This document shows, in pieces, positions 36,416 to 40,430 of a stretch of 40,430 nt of DNA. The first letter of the stretch is position 1; each line of letters starts with the position of its first letter. Under the pieces are notes generated by a model. That model made no database searches. It had not been told where the DNA came from and was given only the letters and a program-made list of their open reading frames with translations. Source of the DNA: a virus. Both the position numbers and the translations under genes were made by a program. The DNA lies in IMG/VR virus record IMGVR_UViG_3300020463_001339, positions 1 to 40,430 of that record. One strand, written 5' to 3'.

Positions 36416-36820
36416 ATGATACTAGATAAAATCAAAGAACGTGGTGAGGAAATGGCTCCTTTAGAAGGACATGACCGATTACAGTATTTGGTTGATCTAG
36501 CAAGAGAAGTAGAACCGTTAAGTGACGAAGATAAAATAGACGAAAACAAAATAAGAGGTTGTGCAAGTAATTTGTGGGTAGTAGGTAAGATGAATAAAGA
36601 CGGAACAATGTCTTACAAACACGACGGAGATGCTTGGATTACAAAAGGTACTGCAAAAGTAATAGTTGATCTAGTAAACGGTGAACATAAAAACGAAATA
36701 GCAGAACTAACCTTGGAAAGTTTTAGACCACTAGGTGTAAGAGAGTTACTAACCATGCAAAGGCAGGTAGGGTTTGGTAGTTTGATTGAAAGAATTATAG
36801 GTATAGCAAAACATGGATGA
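36416..36820 (+). CDS. SufE-like Fe-S cluster assembly protein
   Basis: 134 residues, the normal SufE length (138 in E. coli). The SufE core is clear: LQYLVDLAREVEPLSDEDK, then NKIRGCASNLWVVG with Cys49 at the place of the sulphur-accepting cysteine, a DGDAWITKGTAKVIVDLVNG segment, and a C-terminal RQVGFGSLIERI helix. SufE takes persulphide sulphur from the cysteine desulphurase SufS and passes it to the SufBCD scaffold; a stand-alone phage copy would have to work with host SufS/SufB. It starts two bases after gene 46 and overlaps the next gene by 8, so it is expressed with the recombination genes. I regard it as an auxiliary metabolic gene. The family is confident, activity inferred. Confidence 0.9.
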   Translation: MILDKIKERGEEMAPLEGHDRLQYLVDLAREVEPLSDEDKIDENKIRGCASNLWVVGKMNKDGTMSYKHDGDAWITKGTAKVIVDLVNGEHKNEIAELTLESFRPLGVRELLTMQRQVGFGSLIERIIGIAKHG

Positions 36821-37027: not shown

Positions 37028-37450
37028 ATGCAATGGACATATCAGGGTAAAAAAGTAGACGAGCTACCAGAAGACTGCGAAGCATTTGTTTACTTAATCA
37101 CAAATACAACCAACGATCGTAAATACGTCGGCAAAAAACTAGCTAAATTCAAAAAGACTAGGCCACCTCTGAAGGGTAGGATAAACAAACGTAGAAGCAA
37201 AGTAGAATCAGACTGGAGAGACTATTGGGGCTCCTCAGATCAACTACAAGAAGACGTGAACCAGATAGGCGAAGACAAATTTACAAGAGAGATATTATAC
37301 TATTGTCCAAGTAGAGGCGTAGCAAGTTATTTAGAGGCAAGAGAACAGTTTGAAAGAAGAGTCCTAGAGAAGGACGAGTATTACAATGGTATCATCAACG
37401 TCAGAGTAGGCGGATCCAAAATATTACGTGAAGCATTAAAAGGCAAATAA
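37028..37450 (+). CDS. GIY-YIG nuclease-like protein
   Basis: 140 residues. FVYLI at 20-24 and YVGK at 33-36 stand at the spacing of the GIY and YIG strands. A basic segment follows (KGRINKRRSK), then SDWRDYWGSS, a helix, and EAREQFERRVL (103-113) with a candidate metal-binding Glu, ending in YYNGIINVRVGG. The GIY-YIG domain is a single-metal nuclease fold used by phage homing and repair-type endonucleases. No DNA-binding extension is present, so it may be a free-standing small nuclease common in T4-like phages rather than an active homing enzyme. The ribosome site is weak. It is the last gene before the hairpin-rich gap. Confidence 0.75.
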   Translation: MQWTYQGKKVDELPEDCEAFVYLITNTTNDRKYVGKKLAKFKKTRPPLKGRINKRRSKVESDWRDYWGSSDQLQEDVNQIGEDKFTREILYYCPSRGVASYLEAREQFERRVLEKDEYYNGIINVRVGGSKILREALKGK

Positions 37451-37466
37451 CATAACAACATTGTTT

Positions 37467-37865
37467 GGTCGGGGTAGCTCGACCCGTATTGAGGTCACAA
37501 AGTATGACCGGAACTTACGAGTTGTAAGGGTAAGCTAACTAAAGGCTTAAAAGATGTGGCTCTGTGAAACAGATACAACCACAGCATTAATATATTTTGC
37601 TTAACAAGGGTATATTAGTGTTCCGAAACTATGCGAAGGCTAAGGTAGGGAGTTGGCGGGTTTCCGCTTCCGTACATATTATAATGTAATCCTTTTTGTT
37701 AAGATGGTAATCTCATCTCACATGATGTAACCAATCTTTGCCCGGAGACGGGCGAAGTATGGCTCAACTATCTACATGATGCAAAGTGCTAACGCACTAA
37801 TTGTTATCACATATAATAAAATTGTTTGAGTGTTAACGAAAACAAAGTTGAGCTTTAGCTCAACT
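37467..37865 (+). ncRNA. Candidate structured RNA (dense hairpin array, no ORF)
   Basis: About 400 bases without a gene but with at least nine hairpins in succession: 37467-37484 (GGTCG/CGACC), 37493-37509 (GGTCA/TGACC), 37514-37528 (CTTAC/GTAAG), 37531-37549 (TAAGC/GCTTA), 37555-37583 (TGTGG/CCACA enclosing TCTGT-GAA-ACAGA), 37585-37620 (10 bp), 37673-37688, 37702-37718, 37736-37757 (9 bp with a GAGA tetraloop) and 37785-37798 (GTGC stem, TAAC loop). G-T pairs at 37587/37618 and 37739/37754 are wobble only on the plus strand, and the GNRA loop is also on plus, so the RNA is probably rightward. No promoter is obvious; it may come from readthrough of the gp46 operon. I could not match it to tmRNA, RNase P, SRP RNA or tRNA. 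Confidence 0.55.
37838..37865 (-). terminator. Rho-independent-type terminator after the 64-aa leftward gene
   Basis: On the minus strand a perfect 8-bp stem (AGTTGAGC/GCTCAACT, loop TAAA, 37865-37846) stands directly after the TAG at 37869-37867 and is followed by TTGTTTT. That is a normal intrinsic terminator for the short leftward gene. On the plus strand there is no T run, so it would act only as a hairpin for the RNA candidate. Confidence 0.6.
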
Positions 37866-37866
37866 A

Positions 37867-38061
37867 CTAATGCAATTCCGGATCGCGTCCGTAACGAAAT
37901 GCATCACTATCGTATACAGCAACTTCTTCCACTTTATATTCTTTTTGTGGATTAGCGTCCTTTAACTGTTGTACCGTGAGATCAGCTTCACGCTCGTCAC
38001 TGCATTGAGTTAAGGGTTCAGAGTTGCCTATCTCAAAAACATTATATCTCGTCTGAGGCAT
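37867..38061 (-). CDS. Small hypothetical protein, 64 aa
   Basis: The sequence starts MPQTRYNVFEIGNSEPLTQ and continues with a DEREADLTVQQLKDANP helix and a KEYKVEEVAVYDSD strand, so a small alpha/beta fold is likely. No family is recognised. It is the only leftward gene in the right part of the window, flanked by the RNA candidate and terminator on one side and by the late promoter region of the rightward pair on the other. The start has no ribosome site: GTAAATA lies five bases upstream, so the message could be leaderless or the gene weakly expressed. The terminator placed right at its stop supports it being real. Confidence 0.55.
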   Translation of the reverse strand: MPQTRYNVFEIGNSEPLTQCSDEREADLTVQQLKDANPQKEYKVEEVAVYDSDAFRYGRDPELH

Positions 38062-38729: not shown

Positions 38730-40430
38730 ATGAAACTGAACGAAGTTACTACATCAAGATCGCAGACCATACTTACAGAAGGTTGGAGTGAACTAACAGA
38801 GTCACAGCACAGATACTTAGGTAGATTTGAGCGTGAACTTTGGCCTTTGATGGAGGAACTTAAAACAGTTTTCGAAGCAGACCTTACAGCAAAACAAATC
38901 ACAGACATATTCACAGGTGCTGAAGCAAGTGCAGTAGCAAGTGGAAACAATAGAACAGCATTAGGTAAAGCAGGAGATATTGCAAAACTACCTGTTGATA
39001 TAATGAAAAAGGTTGATGCCAAGATTAACGAACTTGGTAAGATGGCCGCCGAAGCTGGACCTATTAAAAATGCTGATGCAAAGTTTGAAGAATTAAAAAA
39101 GAAAATCGGCTCCAGTGATTCAAAGGTTGCCGCAGGAATTAAAAAAGTAAGTGACTGGGCAAAAGCCAATCCAGGCAAGGCTTCATTAGCAGTAGGTATT
39201 CTAACTGCGGTGGCGGCGTTTGCGGCTGGTCCGGCAGGTGGTGCCGCGGCTGGTTTCTTATTACGTTCAACAACAGGATTATTAAAAGGCGAAAAACTTT
39301 CAACAGCAGTTGGTAAGTCAATTAAGACAGCGGCATATGGTGCTCTAGCTGGTGCGGCATTCAAGTTTCTATCACAAGATATATTAGATAACTTTATGAC
39401 TTCATCACAAGAAGAATGGTTAGCAAACAAAGAAGCCATGGAGGCGGCAAATGCGGCCGCGGCCAAAGCCGACGTAGCAAAAGACTTTGGGTTCGATAGT
39501 GTTAGTGATATGAATGCTCAATTTAACGGAGCAATAGATTACCAAGTTACAGGTAACTACAATGGATTCTTTTACAATTATGATGTAACTATTGCACCAG
39601 AGTACGTAGAAGAATTTAAGGCGCTTAATGCGGCAATGAACAATGCGGAATCATTTTCGGCGGCAGATTACAAAGCGACTGCTGAGTTTCACAGTTTCAT
39701 GAAGGGCATGGTAAACAACGAACAGAATAAACTAGTAGGTTCAGTAATTGATGCTCTAAGAGACGTACCAAAAGATTCACTAAACATGAGCCAGGTAACT
39801 GATCTATTGGCACAAGACCAATCATTAAATGATTTATATGATTCACTTGAAGGTTCTTCAAAAGTGATGGCTTCAGCATTACAAGGTGCGGCACAAACAA
39901 TTGATGACAAAGCCCAAAAGGCTACAACGGTAAAACCAGCAGACAAAGAAGAATTAGAAAAAGTAAAACAAGAAGCAGAAGCTGAAAAAGAATCAGTAGC
40001 TTATGATTACGATACACAGTTTAACGAATATCTAGAAGAAGGTCCAATGGACGCAATTAAAAAAGCCGCGGGTGCAGTTAAAGGCGCCGCAGGTAAAGCC
40101 GCAGGTGCAGTAGGCGGAGCAGTTAAAAAAGGTATATCCAACGTTAAGACAGGTGCAAGTAACCTTGCTAACAAAGTTACACTAGATAAGCTAATGAAAA
40201 CATGGAAGAAGATGGGCGAACCTAAAGATACAGGATCCGTTGTAAACATATTAGCAGGTGCAGGACTTACAAACGATCAGATTACTGCAATAGGATCAGA
40301 ACAAAAAGTTAAATTACCTAAACCAACACAACCGGAACCACCAGCAGATGCTCCAGCAGATGCAGACGCAACAGCAGATGCAGACGCAACAGCAGAGCCA
40401 GGTGATGAAGATCCTAAAGCACCAACACCA
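38730..40430 (+). CDS. Large Ala/Gly-rich late protein, partial (runs off window)
   Basis: From ATG at 38730 (AAGGA seven bases upstream, overlapping the previous stop) the frame is open for 567 codons to the window end; I translated it by hand and saw no stop. The N-terminus is MKLNEVTTSRSQTILTEGWSELTE. A helical, Lys/Glu-rich part follows, then a hydrophobic Ala/Gly stretch (about residues 150-220: SLAVGILTAVAAFAAG, AAAGFLLRSTTGLL, GALAGAAFKFL) that could insert in or cross a membrane. Near 430 is YLEEGPMDAIKKAAGAVKGA, a second Ala/Gly/Lys helix. The visible end is a repetitive Pro/Ala/Asp linker (ADADATADADATA). It resembles ejected or internal head proteins in style, but no family is recognised. 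Confidence 0.75.
   Translation, partial: MKLNEVTTSRSQTILTEGWSELTESQHRYLGRFERELWPLMEELKTVFEADLTAKQITDIFTGAEASAVASGNNRTALGKAGDIAKLPVDIMKKVDAKINELGKMAAEAGPIKNADAKFEELKKKIGSSDSKVAAGIKKVSDWAKANPGKASLAVGILTAVAAFAAGPAGGAAAGFLLRSTTGLLKGEKLSTAVGKSIKTAAYGALAGAAFKFLSQDILDNFMTSSQEEWLANKEAMEAANAAAAKADVAKDFGFDSVSDMNAQFNGAIDYQVTGNYNGFFYNYDVTIAPEYVEEFKALNAAMNNAESFSAADYKATAEFHSFMKGMVNNEQNKLVGSVIDALRDVPKDSLNMSQVTDLLAQDQSLNDLYDSLEGSSKVMASALQGAAQTIDDKAQKATTVKPADKEELEKVKQEAEAEKESVAYDYDTQFNEYLEEGPMDAIKKAAGAVKGAAGKAAGAVGGAVKKGISNVKTGASNLANKVTLDKLMKTWKKMGEPKDTGSVVNILAGAGLTNDQITAIGSEQKVKLPKPTQPEPPADAPADADATADADATAEPGDEDPKAPTP

Follow-up and report, generated by a model that had tools for sequence, protein, structure and literature searches.

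Results

A structured RNA in the largest ORF-free gap of the window

The window that we analyzed is a 40,430-nt stretch of DNA from an uncultured phage (IMG/VR record IMGVR_UViG_3300020463_001339). It encodes gp47- and gp46-like recombination proteins, a SufE-like Fe-S protein (36416–36820, between gp46 and the next gene) and a GIY-YIG protein (Pfam PF19835, SegE_GIY-YIG; 37028–37450, plus strand), the last of which lies directly upstream of the feature studied here and is treated as genomic context only. The last base of the GIY-YIG stop codon is 37450, and a convergent minus-strand gene of 64 amino acids, the next credible one, begins at 37867, leaving a gap of 416 nt (37451–37866). By a mechanical ORF count this is the largest ORF-free stretch of the window, in agreement with an earlier reading of the DNA made from its letters alone (the sequence-only reading), to which a sizeable gene-free gap had stood out at this position. 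One other ORF-free stretch, of 222 nt (39467–39688), is found when ORFs of at least 50 amino acids are counted. ARAGORN and Rfam detected no tRNA or tmRNA in the gap.

Folding of the plus strand of the gap gave a minimum free energy of −127.7 kcal/mol, against −97.3 ± 5.9 kcal/mol for shuffled sequences (z −5.1), and none of 100 shuffles folded as well; the structure proposed from the sequence thus survived comparison with shuffled controls. The minus strand also folds unusually well (z −4.5), indicating that the strand cannot be chosen by folding energy alone. Among the homologues described below, however, the pairs of our model are occupied by G-U in 242 cases and by A-C in 51, an asymmetry that identifies the RNA as the plus strand and upholds an assignment first made from G-T wobbles in the window. 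Together, these results confirm that the gap encodes a structured plus-strand RNA of about 410 nt. From P1 to the last hairpin it occupies 37455–37866 (plus strand; ends approximate), as delimited by folding energy, covariation and homologous gaps.

Distribution and genomic neighborhood

To collect homologues, we searched with the GIY-YIG protein, which returned 80 viral contigs, about 50 of them with a related gap by nucleotide similarity. Further loci were recovered with a DNA pattern taken from the 3′ end of the RNA, independent of any gene, and two additional protein scans contributed freshwater relatives. Where pattern matches had enough upstream sequence, a GIY-YIG gene lay upstream in all but two chance hits. 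The RNAs fall into three main types with a common 3′ half: A, to which the window belongs, B, and D, which is the freshwater type. Their carriers are many uncultured marine and freshwater phages, large members of the T4 superfamily, and each of 18 large contigs, three of them longer than 260 kb, has a single copy. One 347-kb freshwater phage contig with the RNA (G011, L389–L406) also encodes 27 tRNAs and a tmRNA.

The RNA closes the gp46/GIY-YIG gene run on its 3′ side. It lies on the plus strand, starting 5 nt after the GIY-YIG stop codon in the window, and in the window and many relatives a convergent minus-strand gene follows it. This arrangement argues against a role as a leader. Among 169 distinct loci with both gp46 and the GIY-YIG gene, the RNA was found within 900 nt in 163, and in five of the six exceptions it was located 0.9–1.2 kb further on. 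By contrast, no RNA was found at 16 GIY-YIG loci without gp46, among them those of Melnitz, S-ShM2, S-SRM01 and phiM12. Of the loci examined, only about 21 had an ORF cluster with the length and place of the SufE-like gene.

Comparison of two close relatives, L278 (3648–3941) and L280 (3551–3909), revealed that they have an identical GIY-YIG protein and flanks that are 84–94% identical, while their RNA bodies cannot be aligned, belong to different types and differ in both copies of a short word described below. As judged from this pair, the RNA is apparently exchanged as a cassette between close phages.

We also looked for the RNA beyond uncultured phages. A model of the RNA (R1) did not find it in nine isolate phages: PA5oct, Phosso, Atu_ph07, HTVC008M, Melnitz, S-ShM2, S-SRM01 and phiM12 gave no match, and the ninth, a Vibrio jumbo phage, gave marginal scores only (E 0.6–0.8). 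Likewise, blastn of the window, B-type and freshwater RNAs against isolate phages produced no RNA match. The search of bacterial and archaeal genomes, with a pattern that covers the freshwater type only, returned a single match (L423), attributable to chance. The gp46 protein of the window is closest, at 50%, to that of PA5oct-like jumbo phages. Jumbo phages related through gp46 have nearly gene-free stretches of 0.7–1.3 kb close to this gene; the one in PA5oct (L369 5337–6680) holds tiny annotated ORFs and folds weakly (z −1.7), the one in Sinorhizobium phage Phosso (L370 4760–5773) folds better than shuffles (z −3.8), and neither matched Rfam or model R1.

A predicted 5′ domain and double-pseudoknot core

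For the 37 A-type sequences, we built a 74-pair model that includes two pseudoknots. In this model, 87.8% of cells are paired, 48 pairs have two-sided changes and 418 cells are two-sided, compared with 72.7%, 35.6 and 129 in shuffles and at most 46.5%, 25 and 127 in slid structures; because the structures were derived in part from these alignments, the comparison with slid controls favors them, and the two-sided changes nevertheless lie well beyond both controls. The covariation that the sequence-only reading had looked to an alignment of homologues to reveal is therefore present, and these comparisons demonstrate conservation of the RNA and of its predicted fold.

All elements of the fold are given on the plus strand. 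The 5′ domain (37455–37525), in which 14 of 21 pairs have two-sided changes, consists of P1 (37455–37459/37521–37525), P2 (37467–37473/37478–37484), P3 (37485–37488/37516–37519) and P4 (37493–37497/37505–37509). It is followed by P5 (GUGG/CCAC; 37556–37582; three of four pairs two-sided), which encloses a conserved GCUCUGNGAAA..AG element. The P6 hairpin (37585–37620) is most likely what had been described as a 10-bp stem with a nested hairpin; only 66% of its cells are paired in the A type, with two-sided changes at 7 of 10 pairs, and all 11 of its pairs are two-sided in the freshwater type. Its loop (37600–37607) is predicted to pair with 37696–37703, forming pseudoknot 1 (P7), in which six of eight pairs are two-sided in the A type, and seven of seven, with 100% of cells paired, in the 27 D-type sequences.

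Pseudoknot 2 joins 37625–37629 (GAAAC) to 37660–37664 (GUUUC) in the loop of P8 and is paired in 100% of A-type cells, with four of five pairs two-sided; the corresponding counts are three of five in the same D-type set and two of three in the 38 B-type sequences, which keep a shortened version of it. The B-type sequences show no evident pseudoknot 1, and a small hairpin seems to replace that strand. P8 itself consists of P8a (37642–37645/37691–37694; 4/4 pairs two-sided, 100% paired) and P8b (37648–37652/37667–37671; 100% paired), and the small P9 (37674–37677/37684–37687) is two-sided at all four pairs. In the predicted core, the P6 loop thus pairs with a strand lying 3′ of P8, and the P8 loop with the strand that links P6 to P8. 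A further candidate helix, P8c (CGG/CCG), was dropped, since it is nearly invariant and conflicts with pseudoknot 2.

Twin 7-nt words in the tail

Downstream of the core, the plus strand carries the same 7-nt word, ACAUGAU, twice: copy 1 (37720–37726) is preceded by CUC and copy 2 (37774–37780) by UCU. The copies are separated by P10 (37736–37757), a 9-bp hairpin with a GAGA loop that was already recognized from the sequence alone, in which 96% of cells are paired and four of nine pairs are two-sided. After copy 2 come P11 (AGUGC-UAAC-GCACU; 37785–37798), of which relatives have a version of varied sequence, and P12 (37822–37845; UUGUUUGAGU-GUUA-ACGAAAACAA), a hairpin that has a GNNA loop and tandem G.A pairs and whose layout, not scored for covariation, is common to the A, B and freshwater types; every RNA type has P12 3′ of its twin words. 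The last palindromic hairpin (37846–37865), not assigned to a strand, resembles a terminator on the minus strand, where it has a T-rich tail, and is weak on the plus strand. A candidate CAUC/GAUG hairpin containing word 1 (P9b) was not accepted, as it has no two-sided change.

The word varies between phages, with about a dozen types, yet its two copies match each other at 116 of the 118 distinct loci, a set selected with a regular expression that fixed three bases of the word. We therefore repeated the test with anchors placed only in the flanks, fixing no base of the word: the copies agreed in 130 of 159 loci, with many of the disagreements being visibly misplaced anchors, whereas none of 2000 shuffles or reassignments gave more than 44. 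A3-type loci, which fall outside the regular-expression selection, also have matching words on visual inspection, such as the two UCGUGAU copies in L054. Parsimony on the GIY-YIG tree assigned 35 changes to copy 1, 35 to copy 2 and 36 to the two jointly, a joint count that includes whole-cassette exchanges and thus overcounts independent events.

The agreement is confined to the words. Agreement between the bases flanking them is roughly what independent positions would give. Within the D type, word position 1 is A in 19 sequences and G in 15, and the other copy follows perfectly (normalized mutual information 1.00), whereas the next best column reaches 0.60. With no other column following this position in the freshwater set, linkage within the cassette fails to explain the identity of the words. 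On these alignments, the two words are demonstrably coupled.

Search for a partner of the words

We searched for the complement of the word within 6 kb, allowing exact and G-U pairing, and found no consistent place for it and nothing above swapped-word controls. A column-by-column search of the GIY-YIG/RNA region in the A, B and D sets revealed no pairing third strand and no third copy, and neither the word nor its complement was enriched in six large genomes. Where genome pairs that differ in the word could be aligned, over about 111–116 kb in the larger alignments, we found no full-length complement that changed together with the word; the sole full-length co-changing sites were the two RNA copies themselves, and two partial matches of 6 nt look like chance. 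The GIY-YIG protein was rejected as the specificity partner, because identical proteins occur with different words; in that test, perfect mutual-information scores fell on sparse C-terminal columns. The partner of the word may lie in the host or in phage DNA that could not be aligned, or may be a protein.

Relation to known RNA families

Against Rfam 15, the window RNA had no match at the gathering threshold and nothing credible at E ≤ 5. Among its freshwater relatives, however, the 5′ ~135 nt correspond to RF01718 (Polynucleobacter-1; gathering threshold 37 bits), with 120.9 bits (E 8e-28) in L246 (4357–4491), 102.8 bits in G012 and 83.1 bits in G014, all of the freshwater type. The view that this structured RNA lies outside known classes therefore holds for the window and has to be given up for part of its freshwater cousin. 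No RF01718 match was found in the A (window) and B examples tested, indicating that RF01718 describes one domain of one lineage; its model ends before the double pseudoknot and the twin words. Polynucleobacter-1, known from Burkholderiales and from fresh water or estuary, has been listed as a probable RNA with a probable cis-regulatory role (Weinberg et al. 2010, PMC2864571). The phage context found here is not that of a leader.

The non-coding RNAs GOLLD and ROOL of phages and bacteria, whose function is not settled, are large and structured. The window RNA shares these traits but differs from both in length and conserved elements, and the GOLLD covariance model in Rfam did not match it. The comparison with GOLLD-carrying phages drawn in the sequence-only reading is consequently unsupported, the gp46 affinity pointing instead to jumbo phages such as PA5oct. 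No Rfam intron model, including those for group I introns, matched the window RNA. The c4 antisense RNA of P1/P4-like phages is a phage RNA with short target-recognition sequences, whose targets lie nearby in cis; it is much smaller than the window RNA, for which no complement in cis was found. Our literature search uncovered no description of the RNA, which may nonetheless be listed in a large survey of structured phage RNAs.

Discussion

We tentatively favor, at somewhat short of even confidence, a trans-acting RNA whose two words bind one partner, so that the RNA would serve as a decoy or guide. Under this proposal, the RNA would be released from the operon transcript, or terminate it, and then act in trans; the pseudoknotted core would be the scaffold, and each of the two words would bind the same partner molecule, so that a substitution in either copy would have to be matched in the other. 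That the copies stay identical while no neighboring position follows suggests two contacts with one partner, which would most likely be an RNA or RNA-binding protein of the host or phage, titrated or directed by the RNA. Cassette exchange between close phages suggests in turn a partner that is not the same in every host, or that varies among competing phages.

Several other readings have to be weighed against this one. An element of the 3′ UTR that acts only in cis, shielding the operon mRNA from exonucleases or ending transcription, is improbable in our estimation. The start of the RNA just after the GIY-YIG stop in the window would suit it, as would the hairpins P11–P13 that follow and the retention of the RNA on the same strand, further downstream, at the five loci where sequence is inserted before it. 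Such an element, however, has no obvious need for pseudoknots conserved over several types or for two identical words, and the T-rich tail of the last hairpin is on the minus strand only. Programmed translational bypassing and excised elements use matched sites, and the identical words flanking P10 recall these; they could accordingly be read as the cleavage, ligation or hopping sites of a processing RNA or ribozyme that excises or skips the P10 segment. We regard this as distinctly unlikely, given that the words have different flanks (CUC versus UCU), that the region has no long open frame and that there is no similarity to an Rfam ribozyme family.

The proximity of the RNA and the GIY-YIG gene in nearly all loci raises the idea of a nuclease partner in the manner of HEARO/omegaRNA, which are also structured RNAs adjoining a nuclease gene. 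Theirs is an HNH/IsrB-type nuclease, whereas here the GIY-YIG gene and the RNA can be separated: the gene occurs without the RNA in the 16 loci noted above, is set apart from it by 0.9–1.2 kb of inserted sequence in five loci, and encodes an identical protein beside different RNA types in L278 and L280. With gp46 an equally constant neighbor, we give this idea very little credence. Slighter still is the chance of an element acting as DNA, such as an origin or a recombination or packaging site whose palindromes merely resemble RNA; the position between convergent genes near gp46 and gp47 would be natural for it, but the excess of G-U over A-C and the covarying pseudoknots point to single-stranded plus-sense RNA.

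Returning to the trans-acting reading, its more specific form is speculative and, to us, rather doubtful: a new class of phage RNA in which a double-pseudoknot scaffold presents two 7-nt recognition words that are identical and evolve jointly. The specificity of such an RNA would be reset by changing both words or swapping the cassette, and its target would be an RNA or protein specific to the host or to a rival.

What had been a gap in the genomes of uncultured phages can now be assigned to a defined RNA family of marine and freshwater T4-superfamily phages, with a fold backed by covariation. The orphan motif Polynucleobacter-1 emerges as one domain of a larger phage RNA, and only this piece of the freshwater cousin (RF01718) had already been catalogued. 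Twin words locked to each other are an unusual signature of evolution, and one that opens the function to testing: on present evidence, whatever binds the RNA should read both words.
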